Shown: positions 19,322 to 24,588 of the stretch, in pieces
Layout of the letters: every line of letters begins with the position of its first letter
Numbering within the stretch: the first letter of the stretch is position 1
Source of the DNA: Gelidibacter algens
GTDB taxonomy: Bacteria; Bacteroidota; Bacteroidia; Flavobacteriales; Flavobacteriaceae
NCBI RefSeq assembly: GCF_001678675.1
Contig: NZ_LZRN01000025.1
Coordinates: 1-61,984 of the forward strand
DNA length: 61,984 nucleotides
Direction: 5' to 3'
Translations under genes and position numbers: made by a program
The notes under the pieces: generated by a model
What the model saw: only the letters and a program-made list of their open reading frames with translations
The model's database searches: none
What the model was told of the DNA's origin: nothing

Positions 19322-21766
19322 ATGAACGTATTAAAATTTGGGGGAACATCAGTCGGTTCCGCAGAAAACATAAAAAAGGTTATTCAAATTCTAGATAAAT
19401 ATTCAAAAACTGAACCTGTTGTTTGCGTTGTTTCAGCGGTGGGTGGCATTACAGATAAACTGTTGAGAGCTGGCGAACTGGCACAGCAGAAAAACGAAAG
19501 CTATCTTTCTGAATTCAAAACTATTAAAGAGATCCATCTCAATCTTTTATTTGAACTCATCCCTGTACAGAATGACACCGTAAAAGAATATGTTGAGAGT
19601 AAATTAGCAAGTTTAAAAAGCTTGTTGGATGGCATTTATCTTATCAATGAACTGTCTCCTAAAACCTCAGATAAGTTAGTAAGTGTGGGAGAGCTCCTTT
19701 CCTCCTACATCATTGCAGAAACCATGAAAAGCTATGGTTTAGATGTGGTCAGAAAAAATAGTCAAGATCTTTTGGTGACCAACGCTAATTTCACCAAAGC
19801 TGAAGTGAACTACAACATCACAAACGCTAACATTCAACACTATTTTAAGAATGCCAATCAAAAAATCACGATCCTTCCTGGGTTTGTGTCCAAATCTGAA
19901 TCGGGAGAAATTACAACCTTAGGCCGTGGTGGATCTGATTTTACGGCAGCTATTATTGCTGCAGCGTTACACGTCAACCGATTGGAAATCTGGACAGATG
20001 TCAGCGGCATGTTTACGGCAAATCCTAAACTCGTCAAACAGGCGTATCCTATTGAAAGACTATCTTATCAGGAAGCTATGGAACTTTCGCATTTTGGTGC
20101 AAAGGTTTTATATCCGCCTTCAGTGCAACCTGTTTTGGATTTAAATATTCCCATCCACATCAAAAACACGACAGAGCCCGAAGCCCAAGGCACCATCATT
20201 ACTAACGACAAGAACAACGGATTTTCCAAGGCTGCAAAAGGGATCAGCAACATCAGTAATATTGCCTTATTGACTTTGCAAGGGCATGGTATGGTGGGCA
20301 TTCCCGGGTTTTCTAAGCGATTGTTTGAAACCTTGGCGCAAGAAAAAATCAACGTCATCTTTATTACTCAAGCGTCTTCTGAACACTCGATTTGTTTTGG
20401 TATTGATGAAAAAGATGCCAATCTTGCAGCAATGAGTATTAACCTCACATTTGAAAATGAAATCTCATTAAAAAAAATAGATCCTATAATTGTAGAAAAA
20501 GATTTATCTATTGTCGCCCTTGTAGGTGATAATATGAAGAATCATCAAGGTATTAGCGGCAGAATGTTCAGTGCCTTAGGTAAAAATAACATTAATATTA
20601 GAGCCATTGCCCAAGGTGCTTCAGAAAAGAACATTTCTACAGTCATTGCACAAAAGGATGTAAAAAAGGCATTGAATACTATTCATGAACGCTTTTTTGA
20701 AGATCAGACCAAACAGCTGAATGTTTATATCACTGGGGTTGGAAATGTTGGGGAACGACTTGTAGAGCAAATCAAACAACAGAAAAAATATTTGAAAGAG
20801 CAACTGAAAATTAATATGAGAGTGATCGGCTTGTCCAATTCTAGAACCATGATTTTTGATGAATCTGGACTATCCCTAAGATCTTGGAAGGAACAATTGG
20901 CTTCAGGGGAAAAGGCCTCCTTGGAAGGGTTTTTAGAACGCAACAAAAGCTTCAACCTACGCAACAGTATTTTTGTGGATGTTACTGCTAATGAAGACGT
21001 TTCAAAAATTTATGCAGATTATTTAAAAGAGAGCATTGCTGTAGTGGCTTGCAATAAAATTGCCTGTTCAAGTGTGTTTGAAAACTATAGCAATCTCAAG
21101 AGACTTTCGGTAAAATACAATGCGCCATTTTTATTTGAAACTAATGTTGGTGCTGGTTTACCCATCCTTGATACCTTAAATCATTTGATTGCTTCTGGCG
21201 ATAAAATAACGTCCATCAAAGCGGTGCTTTCTGGAAGTTTAAACTTTGTTTTCAATAATTTTGATGACCATACAAATTTTCACGATGTTGTAAAACAAGC
21301 ACAAAAGGAAGGTTATACGGAGCCTGATCCGCGGATTGATTTAAGTGGTGTTGATGTGGCTCGAAAAATCCTGATCCTAGCTCGAGAAAGTGGTACTGAA
21401 ATGAATTTGGAAGACATTGAAAACACGTCGTTTTTAACAAAAAACAATCTAAAAAGTGATTCTGTGGATGATTTTTATCAAACGTTAATAGCTGATGAAG
21501 GCCATTTCCAAAAATTATATGCCTCTGCAAAAAAGAACGACTGCCAGTTGAAATATGTGGCCGAATTTAACGAAGGGAAAGCTAAAGTTGGCCTGCAAGA
21601 AATTCCGTCGGATCATCCTTTTTATAATCTGAAAGGCAAGGATAATATCGTGATGTTTTTTACTCAGCGATATCCACAACAGCCAATGATCATTAAAGGT
21701 GCCGGTGCTGGAGCTGATGTAACGGCTTCAGGATTGTTTGCTGATATTATTAGAATTGGGAATTAG
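19322..21766 (+). CDS. thrA: bifunctional aspartokinase / homoserine dehydrogenase
   Basis: The 814-residue protein joins an aspartokinase (about 1-290; KFGGTSVGSAENI and the GRGGSDFTAA motif), tandem ACT regulatory domains (about 310-455, e.g. TLQGHGMVGIPGFSKRLF and VALVGDNM), and an NAD(P)-dependent homoserine dehydrogenase (about 460-814; YITGVGNVGERLVEQ, NVGAGLPILDT and the PDPRIDLSGVDVARK signature). It catalyses the first and third steps from aspartate towards threonine and methionine. The ACT domains suggest feedback inhibition by threonine. It heads thrA-thrB-(S23)-thrC. The next gene follows after a 101-bp gap that holds a 7-bp repeat array. Confidence 0.96.
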   Translation: MNVLKFGGTSVGSAENIKKVIQILDKYSKTEPVVCVVSAVGGITDKLLRAGELAQQKNESYLSEFKTIKEIHLNLLFELIPVQNDTVKEYVESKLASLKSLLDGIYLINELSPKTSDKLVSVGELLSSYIIAETMKSYGLDVVRKNSQDLLVTNANFTKAEVNYNITNANIQHYFKNANQKITILPGFVSKSESGEITTLGRGGSDFTAAIIAAALHVNRLEIWTDVSGMFTANPKLVKQAYPIERLSYQEAMELSHFGAKVLYPPSVQPVLDLNIPIHIKNTTEPEAQGTIITNDKNNGFSKAAKGISNISNIALLTLQGHGMVGIPGFSKRLFETLAQEKINVIFITQASSEHSICFGIDEKDANLAAMSINLTFENEISLKKIDPIIVEKDLSIVALVGDNMKNHQGISGRMFSALGKNNINIRAIAQGASEKNISTVIAQKDVKKALNTIHERFFEDQTKQLNVYITGVGNVGERLVEQIKQQKKYLKEQLKINMRVIGLSNSRTMIFDESGLSLRSWKEQLASGEKASLEGFLERNKSFNLRNSIFVDVTANEDVSKIYADYLKESIAVVACNKIACSSVFENYSNLKRLSVKYNAPFLFETNVGAGLPILDTLNHLIASGDKITSIKAVLSGSLNFVFNNFDDHTNFHDVVKQAQKEGYTEPDPRIDLSGVDVARKILILARESGTEMNLEDIENTSFLTKNNLKSDSVDDFYQTLIADEGHFQKLYASAKKNDCQLKYVAEFNEGKAKVGLQEIPSDHPFYNLKGKDNIVMFFTQRYPQQPMIIKGAGAGADVTASGLFADIIRIGN

Positions 21767-21770
21767 TTCT

Positions 21771-21812
21771 CAGTCTGCAGTTGGCAGTCGGCAGTCTGCG
21801 GTCGGCAGTTGG
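21771..21812 (+). repeat. 7-bp tandem array, CAGTYKG type, between thrA and thrB
   Basis: Six contiguous heptamers: CAGTCTG, CAGTTGG, CAGTCGG, CAGTCTG, CGGTCGG, CAGTTGG. It begins 4 bp after the thrA stop codon. Period 7 is strict while positions 5-6 vary. A similar CAGTNNN array lies at 58307-58334, upstream of pyrB. Confidence 0.85.
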
Positions 21813-21867
21813 CGTATAAAACAAACAGTCGCGGATGGTTCTGTAAACAAAATTAATAAAAGTACTT

Positions 21868-22794
21868 GTGACAAAAAATGAAATCAAAATATTCTCCCCG
21901 GCAACGGTAGCTAATGTGTCCTGCGGATATGATGTCCTAGGATTTTGTTTAGACACTATTGGGGATGAGATGATTGTTAGAAAAACAGAAAAAAAAGGAA
22001 TTTTTATCACTAAGATCGAAGGATATAAATTGCCATTTGAAGCTAAAAAAAATGTAGCAGGAGTTTCTGCATTGGCAATGCTTGCTGATGCGCAACCTAA
22101 CTGCGGATTTGAAATTGAAATTTACAAAAAAATTAAACCCGGTAGTGGTATTGGCAGCAGTAGCGCCAGTGCATGTGGAAGTGTTTTTGCCATCAATGAA
22201 CTTTTAGGAAGACCTTACAATAAAACCCAAGTGACTGATTTCGCAATGAAAGGTGAAGCTTTGGCAAGCGGTAGTGAGCATGCAGATAATTTAGCTCCAG
22301 GGATTTTCGGGGGATTTACGCTGGTAAAAAGCACATCGCCATTGGAAGTTCTACAATTACCGACGCCAAAAGATATGTATGCAACCATTATCCATCCACA
22401 AATAGAAATTAAAACTTCTGATGCTAGGGCCATTTTACCCAAGGAATTTCCGTTGACGGATGCCATTACACAATGGGCCAACGTGGGAAGTTTTGTCCAT
22501 GCCCTGCACACTAATGATTACGACTTATTGAAAAGAGCACTTCATGACGTTATTGTTGAACCGCACCGTAGCAGATTAATTCCGCATTTTGCGGAAGTCA
22601 AGTCGGCCGCACTTATTCATGGAGCTTTGGGTGCTGGAATTTCTGGCGCTGGACCATCTATTTTTACGCTATCCAAAGGAATTGAAAATGCTAAAAGCGT
22701 TGAAAGAGCGATGCGGGATGTATATTCGAGTACGACCATTGCATTTGAAACTTATGTGTCGCGGATTAATACGGGAGGAATTAAAATCTTATGA
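21868..22794 (+). CDS. thrB: homoserine kinase
   Basis: The 308-residue GHMP kinase has the ATP-binding motif KPGSGIGSSSASACGS (about residues 91-106) and conserved N-terminal FSPATVANVSCGYDVLG and C-terminal HGALGAGISGAGPS motifs. It phosphorylates homoserine to O-phosphohomoserine in the cytoplasm, the substrate of the threonine synthase encoded downstream. The start is GTG at 21868; the nearby ATG at 21879 is out of frame. The gene lies between an upstream and a downstream array of 7-bp repeats. Confidence 0.95.
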   Translation: MTKNEIKIFSPATVANVSCGYDVLGFCLDTIGDEMIVRKTEKKGIFITKIEGYKLPFEAKKNVAGVSALAMLADAQPNCGFEIEIYKKIKPGSGIGSSSASACGSVFAINELLGRPYNKTQVTDFAMKGEALASGSEHADNLAPGIFGGFTLVKSTSPLEVLQLPTPKDMYATIIHPQIEIKTSDARAILPKEFPLTDAITQWANVGSFVHALHTNDYDLLKRALHDVIVEPHRSRLIPHFAEVKSAALIHGALGAGISGAGPSIFTLSKGIENAKSVERAMRDVYSSTTIAFETYVSRINTGGIKIL

Positions 22795-22804
22795 GATAAG
22801 ACTG

Positions 22805-22839
22805 ATGACGGATGACGGATGACGGATGACGGATGACTG
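22805..22839 (+). repeat. 7-bp tandem array, ATGACGG type, 5' of the S23 gene
   Basis: Four perfect ATGACGG heptamers and one ATGACTG, starting 10 bp after the thrB stop codon. An array of the same unit in reverse orientation lies beyond the S23 gene at 23254-23281, so the pair brackets that gene as degenerate inverted repeats. Confidence 0.88.
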
Positions 22840-22874
22840 GTGGCAGAGCTGGTTTTAGCCAAAAAACATGACTT

Positions 22875-23210
22875 ATGAATAAATTTAAATTTGAAAACCT
22901 GATAATCTGGCAAAAAGCAATGGATTTAGGTGAAGAAATTGATGTTCTGACAGCGTCTTTTCCTGATAAAGAAAAATATAATTTATCATCTCAAATAAGA
23001 CGTGCGGCTGATTCTATTGCATCAAATATTTCAGAAGGTTCAATTGGACAAAGCAATCCTGAGCAAAAGAAATTTATAGGCTATGCAATCCGGTCATTGG
23101 CTGAAGTTGTGACATGTCTTTATAAATCAAGAAATAGAAATTATTTAACAATAGCTCAATTCGACAATTTATATGAAAAATCTTATGATGAATATGATGA
23201 TCGCATTTAA
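22875..23210 (+). CDS. four-helix-bundle protein, S23 (23S rRNA intervening-sequence protein) family
   Basis: The 111-residue protein starts FKFENLIIWQKAMDLGEEID and has the family signature SSQIRRAADSIASNISEG (residues about 37-54) and FIGYAIRSLAEVVTCL. S23 proteins fold as pentameric four-helix bundles; they were first found in rRNA intervening sequences and also resemble accessory proteins of retroelements, but their function is unsettled. It sits between thrB and thrC and is bracketed by inverted 7-bp repeat arrays, so it looks like an inserted cassette. The C terminus reads SYDEYDDRI; the +1 frame from 23182 instead gives LMMNMMIAFKNKIN ending at 23226, which looks like the usual family end, so a one-base indel near 23185-23195 has probably altered the tail. 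Confidence 0.85.
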   Translation: MNKFKFENLIIWQKAMDLGEEIDVLTASFPDKEKYNLSSQIRRAADSIASNISEGSIGQSNPEQKKFIGYAIRSLAEVVTCLYKSRNRNYLTIAQFDNLYEKSYDEYDDRI

Positions 23211-23253
23211 AAATAAAATTAATTAAATAAAAATGACCTATCGACACTAACTT

Positions 23254-23281
23254 CGGTCACCCGTCATCCGTCACCCGTCAA
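23254..23281 (-). repeat. 7-bp tandem array, inverted copy 3' of the S23 gene
   Basis: Plus-strand heptamers CGGTCAC, CCGTCAT, CCGTCAC, CCGTCAA; on the minus strand these read RTGACGG-type units, the same unit as the array at 22805-22839. It ends 5 bp before the thrC start codon. Confidence 0.85.
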
Positions 23282-23286
23282 TTACC

Positions 23287-24588
23287 ATGAAATACTACTC
23301 ACTAAATAAAAAAGCCCCAAACTCCTCATTCAAAGAGGCCGTCATAAAAGGTATTGCTCCAGACAAAGGATTATATTTTCCAGAGCGTATCACGCCTTTA
23401 CCAAGCTCTTTTTTTGAAAACATAGATGATCTTTCTTATGAAGACATTGCTTTTGAAGCCATAAAGCAATTCGTGAGTCCAGATATTCCTGAAGCTGTTT
23501 TAAAAACCATTATTTCAGAAACCTTATCCTTTGATTTTCCGATCGTGGAAATTAATGAAAAGATAGCTACACTAGAGTTGTTTCATGGGCCAACTATGGC
23601 ATTTAAAGACGTTGGCGCTCGATTTATGGCGCGTTGCTTAGCGTACTTTAATCAAGATGACACTGGGGAAATCACCGTTTTGGTAGCCACATCAGGTGAT
23701 ACTGGAGGTGCTGTAGCCAATGGTTTTTTAGGCGTGAAGGGTGTCAATGTGGTGATAATGTATCCGAGTGGAAAAGTGAGTGATATTCAAGAAAAACAAT
23801 TGACAACGCTCAAGCAAAACATTACAGCCTTAGAGGTGGATGGAGTTTTTGATGATTGTCAAGATATGGTGAAACGCGCATTTTTAGATGAAGAGTTGAC
23901 CAGTAAAATGCAACTCACTTCAGCAAACTCAATTAATGTTGCACGTTGGTTGCCTCAAATGTTTTATTTCTTTTTCGCCTATAAACAGCTTCATAAAACC
24001 AATAAAAATGTTGTGTTTTCTGTACCAAGTGGTAACTTCGGGAATATTTGCGCAGGCATGATGGCACAGCAATTAGGGTTACCCATACAACATTTTATCG
24101 CTTCAAATAATGAAAATAATGTGGTGACTGAGTATCTTACCTCACAATTATACCAGCCAAAACCTTCGGTTCAAACCATAAGTAATGCCATGGATGTGGG
24201 CAACCCTAGTAATTTTATCAGGATTCAGGAAATTTACAAGAATAATTTTGAGGCGCTCAAATCAAACTTATCGTCCTATAGTTTTTCTGATAATGACACG
24301 AGGAAAGCGCTCAAAGAGCTTTATACTGATTTTTCATATGTTGCAGATCCGCATGGTGCCGTGGGTTATTTGGGCTGTAAAGCGTATTTAAAAAATCACG
24401 ACAATGCACATTGTGTGTTTTTGGAAACCGCACATCCCACAAAATTCTTGGAAGTGGTGGAAGCTGTCATCCAAAAAAACATTGACTTGCCGCCACAAAT
24501 TGAGGCCGTTATGGATAAGGAAAAAGTATCCATTCCAATAGCGCATTACAACGAATTAAAGACCGTTTTATTAAACAGCATTTCATAA
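23287..24588 (+). CDS. thrC: threonine synthase
   Basis: The 433-residue PLP enzyme has the cofactor lysine at about Lys107 in GPTMAFKDVGARF, with VATSGDTGGAVANGF (phosphate-binding and substrate region) and VPSGNFGNICAG. It converts O-phosphohomoserine to threonine, the last step of the pathway begun by thrA and thrB. The N-terminal KYYSLNKKAP and length fit the longer, class I-type threonine synthases. The start ATG at 23287 is only 5 bp after the repeat array, so the array forms the region upstream of the start where a ribosome would bind. Confidence 0.95.
   Translation: MKYYSLNKKAPNSSFKEAVIKGIAPDKGLYFPERITPLPSSFFENIDDLSYEDIAFEAIKQFVSPDIPEAVLKTIISETLSFDFPIVEINEKIATLELFHGPTMAFKDVGARFMARCLAYFNQDDTGEITVLVATSGDTGGAVANGFLGVKGVNVVIMYPSGKVSDIQEKQLTTLKQNITALEVDGVFDDCQDMVKRAFLDEELTSKMQLTSANSINVARWLPQMFYFFFAYKQLHKTNKNVVFSVPSGNFGNICAGMMAQQLGLPIQHFIASNNENNVVTEYLTSQLYQPKPSVQTISNAMDVGNPSNFIRIQEIYKNNFEALKSNLSSYSFSDNDTRKALKELYTDFSYVADPHGAVGYLGCKAYLKNHDNAHCVFLETAHPTKFLEVVEAVIQKNIDLPPQIEAVMDKEKVSIPIAHYNELKTVLLNSIS

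Follow-up and report, generated by a model that had tools for sequence, protein, structure and literature searches.

An S23 gene enclosed by inverted heptamer arrays in the threonine operon of Gelidibacter algens may belong to a widespread class of small elements related in plan to rRNA intervening sequences

Results and discussion

The window, the whole 61,984-nucleotide stretch of Gelidibacter algens DNA that was analysed, contains between thrB and thrC a small gene of the S23 family enclosed by two arrays of 7-bp repeats in inverted orientation, as the earlier note had described from the letters alone and as sequence, TRF and a match to PF05635 bear out (Table 1). The architecture and the generality of this S23-heptamer plan are well supported, and we lean, with slightly better than even confidence, towards reading the window copy as one of a widespread set of small selfish elements that resemble the intervening sequences (IVS) of rRNA genes and ride in protein operons. 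Two old puzzles, the function of S23 and the origin of intergenic heptamer arrays, seem to concern a single system; on this reading the rRNA intervening sequence is a special case of a far commoner element. In what follows, G, L and C numbers denote genomes, loci and contigs, respectively.

Table 1. Features of the thrB-thrC element and its neighbours in the window
Feature	Position	Strand	Basis
Whole element: left heptamer array, S23 gene, inverted right heptamer array	22800..23281	+	thrB-thrC gap
Left array, GGATGAC/ATGACGG units	22800..22839	+	sequence, TRF, shuffles
S23 (PF05635) gene, 111 aa	22875..23210	+	profile match, model; C-terminus out of frame relative to intact G003 copy
Right array, GTCAYCC units, inverted relative to left	23254..23281	+	sequence, TRF, shuffles
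Predicted RNA fold, arrays pairing around S23 gene	22795..23290	+	RNA folding
thrB, upstream neighbour	21868..22794	+	annotation of flanks
thrC, downstream neighbour	23287..24588	+	annotation of flanks
Bifunctional aspartate kinase/homoserine dehydrogenase (thrA)	19322-21766	same direction as thrB, thrC
Solo heptamer array, CAGTCGG type, without S23, between thrA and thrB	21771..21813	+	TRF, shuffles

The element between thrB and thrC

The left array consists of four perfect ATGACGG units followed by ATGACTG (22805-22839; 22800-22837 with period 7 by TRF), and the right array of CGGTCAC, CCGTCAT, CCGTCAC and CCGTCAA (23256-23280 by TRF); both are tandem intergenic 7-bp repeats, the description that defines STRR-type sequences. 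Dinucleotide shuffling of the window (100 shuffles) gave arrays of the strength of the right one (score of at least 12) at 0.03 per shuffle and none with the score of the left one (28, against a top shuffled score of 14). In the predicted RNA fold, the arrays are joined by 19 pairs around the S23 gene (minimum free energy -112.2 kcal/mol, z -2.68, with 1 of 100 shuffles equally stable), so that in this fold the element has the complementary, stem-forming ends of an rRNA IVS. The thrA-thrB gap also contains CAGT-type repeats in G001, G005, G006, G007 and G008, which form long arrays in some of these genomes.

The predicted product is an S23 (23S_rRNA_IVP) family protein by both profile and four-helix-bundle fold: it matches PF05635 with an E value of 4.1e-31 (107.8 bits, curated cut-off 33.8) and TIGR02436, "four helix bundle protein", with 94 bits (cut-off 24), and its AlphaFold model (mean pLDDT 91.3, four helices) resembles the S23 structures 2gsc (TM 0.88) and 2rld (TM 0.80). 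The model also resembles Avd, the accessory protein of diversity-generating retroelements (4dwl, TM 0.74), a less sure match at E 0.12; PF05635 is likened to Avd in an excerpt of PMC10053308, and the resemblance to retroelement accessory proteins suggested in the earlier note is upheld to this extent. No reverse transcriptase is listed in the 15 annotated plasmid stretches that carry S23.

A comparison by eye with the intact G003 copy shows the window frame to be about 5 nt short near its 3' end, which puts its C-terminus out of frame; among the other copies at the thr locus, that of G003 is open, that of G004 has one stop and that of G002 has three. Across the genus, S23 genes are under purifying selection (median dN/dS 0.05 among 57 non-independent pairs), which fits a useful host protein too. 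The S23 genes of loci L034 and L135, in G005 and G004, are separated by a dS of only 0.12 in genomes whose thrC genes are 79% identical in DNA, possibly reflecting recent transfer.

Heptamer arrays beside S23 genes

A period-7 array adjoins 126 of 241 unique S23 genes (71 from the genus, 75 from the family, 80 from a cross-phylum set and 15 from plasmids; masked letters left out), and 115 have no array over a threshold that, like the flank length, was set after the first 36 loci had been inspected. These loci were mostly taken from the top of each list by score rather than at random (the 80 cross-phylum loci are the best of at least 588 and, by record title, span at least 15 phyla), five groups of S23 fragments were merged, and the copies are not independent of one another. 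In the genus and family together, an array is found on either side of 65 of 146 S23 genes versus 32 of 574 control genes located in the same stretches more than 1.2 kb from S23, and arrays on both sides at 19 S23 genes versus none of the controls. The corresponding cross-phylum figures are 47 of 80 (counting a masked stretch, L155, as a left array) versus 31 of 238, and 20 versus 5. Arrays also accompany 12 of 15 unique plasmid S23 genes (from 16 matches taken out of 23, with 21 of the 23 records cyanobacterial by name) and 29 of 45 unique S23 genes on viral contigs. The association of S23 genes with heptamer arrays elsewhere, which the earlier note had asked for, is thus strong in all five sets, and its cassette layout with inverted repeat-array ends recurs across phyla. 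Within the open-licence PMC literature, preprints being outside the scope of the search, no work tying S23 genes in general to heptamer arrays was found.

The association centres on period 7. In the genus and family, no other period from 3 to 12 exceeds 5.5%; across phyla, period 8 shows an excess too (10 of 80 versus 7 of 238), far below period 7. A second detector, applied to S23 genes alone without controls, returned period 7 at 35 of 71, 40 of 75, 52 of 80 and 11 of 15 genes, and any other period at no more than 8 of 80 genes (3 of 15 on plasmids). Small genes of the GIY-YIG control family in the same nine genus genomes have an array at 0 of 29 loci (a thirtieth, part of a long gene, was dropped), and a chance origin of the arrays is ruled out by this control and the window shuffles.

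The two arms are typically inverted with respect to each other. Where both flanks carry an array (77 S23 genes), the units are reverse complements, matching at 6 or more of 7 positions, in 45; partners shuffled 2000 times give 2.9 on average and never more than 12. Such a match is absent in 32 of the 77, and in 8 of the 77 the arms match in direct orientation. Upstream arrays are richer in G than C in 71 of 82 cases and downstream arrays richer in C than G in 72 of 89. Predicted RNA pairing between the arms has a median of -24.6 kcal/mol, versus -7.6 kcal/mol for swapped partners.

All 9 genus genomes searched carry S23, with 6-13 matches each, as do 50 of the 70 family genomes and 45 of the 61 phylum genomes; the 14 control genomes have none. 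In the family, both neighbours run in the direction of S23 in 72 of 73 cases, versus 235 of 378 controls, and in the genus in 62 of 65, versus 112 of 153; the bias is much weaker across phyla, where, for S23 genes alone without controls, same-direction flanks occur at 46 of 71 cross-phylum and 10 of 14 plasmid genes. On cyanobacterial plasmids (L250, L251, L256, L249), S23 genes are found between ribonucleotide reductase genes and inside CRISPR-cas operons, with examples between cas6 and cas4 and one, without an array, between cas10 and a cmr3-type gene. Locus L006 (1489-1848) has S23 with long heptamer arrays between ABC-2 type permease-like and ABC ATPase-like genes, and the 3.3 kb of this locus on contig C11 are identical to L007 on C72, perhaps an assembly duplicate. 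Phage cargo was considered and rejected, one query having returned no S23 in 50,697 phage records, though 51 viral contigs carry S23.

Heptamer units and S23 lineages

Heptamer units vary from locus to locus, and their sharing rises with relatedness of the adjacent proteins: a unit is common to 65% of S23 pairs above 75% protein identity (43 pairs), 25% of those at 60-75% (96 pairs) and 2-3% of those below 45%. Among pairs at 60-75% identity without homologous flank proteins, the unit is still common to 16 of 76, versus 124 of 5630 below 45%. Unrelated S23 genes of a single genome share a unit in 3 of 82 pairs, so the host genome is not supported as its determinant. The unit follows the S23 protein lineage, not the host genome.

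Arrays of an S23-associated unit are also scattered through the genome that carries the S23 gene. AGTTCTC has 257 overlapping matches in G143 versus 0-4 in seven other genomes, TAGTGGT has 22 in G141 versus 0-9 in others, and GGGAATC has 105-321 in four genomes (of two Luteimonas loci, a Dokdonella locus and a Pseudoxanthomonas locus) versus 0, 0, 0 and 4; one of these four, G139, has 153 GGGAATC matches, yet the unit beside its S23 locus L147 is GATTGGT. A backward-read control pattern was also matched 183 times in G139, where it happens to be a rotation of GATTGGT, and 98 times in G141. The window genome has 30 solo arrays in 800 kb; outside the genus, genomes with S23 have hardly more arrays than S23-free genomes (3 versus 1, in 400 kb each). 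The 38 S23 units of the genus match 77% of the solo arrays of the window genome, which says little because equal numbers of units from other taxa match nearly as often (67% on average), and the 8 units of its own S23 genes match 48%, versus a mean of 20% and a maximum of 52% in 1000 draws.

The main rival to a selfish element is a regulator in the service of the host: S23 would bind heptamer arrays in mRNA, regulate itself through its own arms and tune operons, with arrays elsewhere as its targets. We think this unlikely. Purifying selection on S23, the passage of the unit with the protein lineage and the dispersal of cognate-unit arrays in the same genome all agree with such a regulator, as does the post-transcriptional factor, of unknown identity, that is proposed for TAACTGA arrays in an excerpt of PMC4679880; S23 is, however, patchy at a single locus within one genus, three of the four thr-locus copies are broken, and PMC4990558 presents the rRNA IVS as selfish.

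Still less probable is the absence of any functional link, in which arrays would be microsatellites made by slippage and S23 would merely survive in the same permissive intergenic spots. That solo arrays are common in the window genome, and that in many genomes no repeat class is more abundant than heptamers (as stated in an excerpt of PMC4679880), would suit it. The array-free GIY-YIG genes and the reverse-complementary arms argue against it, as does a unit that tracks the protein lineage even at loci with different neighbours, and it is already hard to hold.

Presence and absence at two loci

The thrB-thrC gap is 470-495 bp long and contains S23 in four of the nine genus genomes (the window genome, G000, with G002, G003 and G004), and is 89-109 bp long without S23 in the other five (G001, G005, G006, G007 and G008). 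The earlier note would have counted gene and repeats at this locus in all relatives against an inserted cassette, and this is not the distribution found. By eye, the S23-free spacers are alike and unrelated to the element, and at this locus the original spacer is replaced and not interrupted. CACAGAG repeats about 10 nt apart fill the S23-free gaps in L038, L042 and L045 (the spacers of G001, G005 and G006 show CACAGAG). In the thrC tree, G001 and G005 cluster with the filled G002 and G003, apart from the empty G006-G008, which makes the short state look ancestral; the filled state would then have been gained or transferred more than once, or displaced through recombination with empty alleles.

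A second locus lies between genes that we take to be a 3-hydroxybutyryl-CoA dehydrogenase-like gene and a DUF1015-like gene. The gap is 18 bp in G006, 21 bp in G007 and 479 bp in G001, where S23 is present with CAGTGTT/ACTGAAC arms. In the remaining six genus genomes it measures 76-173 bp and lacks S23; by eye, inverted CAGT/ACTG arms are clear in three of them (G000, G002 and G005) and weaker in the others (G003, G004 and G008). A genome of another genus, G026, has S23 in the same place (L080), and in G055 (L095) the two flank matches are 6 bp apart. Since empty, hairpin and full states all occur at this locus, S23-less hairpins, which may be either relics or targets, occupy sites of the full element in relatives.

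Target duplications, which the earlier note had proposed to look for at the ends of the element, are not visible at either of the two loci compared by eye. Its caution that mobility was not established still applies, and movement, which would account for these states, is read from presence and absence only. An alternative in which a transposase acting in trans moves a DNA cassette with terminal inverted repeats, S23 being only a passenger, seems improbable: inverted ends, S23-less derivatives, polymorphic sites and the transposase or integrase genes that adjoin some plasmid S23 copies are what it would lead one to expect, but the ends vary between loci, both loci lack a target duplication, and the near-uniform sense orientation in the family does not favour it, though selection could yield such a bias.

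Comparison with known systems and a proposed model

In REP/RAYT systems, a gene for a RAYT transposase is flanked by inverted short repeats, and many copies of the repeat without the gene are found in the genome. The S23 plan is similar in placing a gene between inverted short repeats with gene-less repeats elsewhere, but S23 is not a transposase and its unit is a tandem heptamer. Unlike an IS element or MITE, it has units that differ between loci and shows no target duplication by eye at the two loci.

The closest parallel is the IVS of Coxiella 23S rRNA, in which, according to excerpts of PMC4990558, an S23 ORF lies between complementary stem-forming ends whose stem is cut by RNase III, with tandem GACAGAT heptamers of variable copy number directly upstream of the ORF and heptamers at the RNase III site; the ORF is decaying in some strains, and the rRNA IVS is called a selfish element and S23 a protein of "no known function". 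The window element shares the plan of heptamers, S23 ORF and complementary ends, together with patchy distribution and decay. It differs in that its host is a protein operon, that heptamers make up both arms and that the unit varies with S23 lineage, and it is not itself an rRNA IVS because it lies between thrB and thrC, outside a 23S rRNA gene.

The arrays further resemble the STRR of cyanobacteria, the GGGAATC repeats of Xanthomonas and the TAACTGA repeats of Beggiatoaceae, all tandem intergenic 7-bp units often found as inverted pairs or hairpins. Excerpts report 70 and 75 inverted GGGAATC pairs in two Xanthomonas genomes (PMC4692102) and hairpins formed by the cyanobacterial repeats, whose "function is still not known" (PMC2670836). 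Unlike these repeats as described, the arrays reported here are tied to S23 genes; the term "S23" has no occurrence in the texts of PMC4679880, PMC4692102 and PMC2670836.

Sense insertion, patchiness, decay and the S23-less forms are best accounted for by a selfish IVS-like element. It would consist of a heptamer array, an S23 gene and the same heptamer inverted, inserted in sense between co-directional genes, and read-through from the host operon would probably provide for S23 expression. Once transcribed, the two arrays could pair in any register, and RNase III might cut the stem and excise the insert from the mRNA by analogy with the rRNA IVS, so that the insert would disturb its host little. 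S23, a four-helix bundle that is a pentamer in a solved relative and akin to Avd, may recognize its own heptamer in RNA or DNA and assist spread or homing of the element, possibly together with a polymerase in trans. The S23-less hairpins and the solo arrays might be its relics or its non-autonomous derivatives, a relation like that of REP sequences to RAYT. Against this reading, no fresh insertion was seen, recombination among old alleles is another possible explanation of the pattern in the nine genomes, and the element has neither a target duplication nor fixed ends.

A bolder form of the proposal, which we regard as doubtful though worth stating, is that S23 proteins are rings, each specific for a heptamer, which copy or lengthen their own arrays with the aid of a polymerase in trans and carry S23 into new transcripts; they would constitute an RNA-level mobile class that seeds the heptamer repeats of bacteria, and the known IVS would be a landing in rRNA. 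The tendency of each S23 lineage to have its own heptamer makes the idea of a single S23-heptamer system directly testable by exchange of proteins and units.

Elsewhere in the window genome, at L345 (1-6300; contig C16, from 20 kb), about 6 kb contain eight heptamer arrays of several units, one of them 640 bp long.
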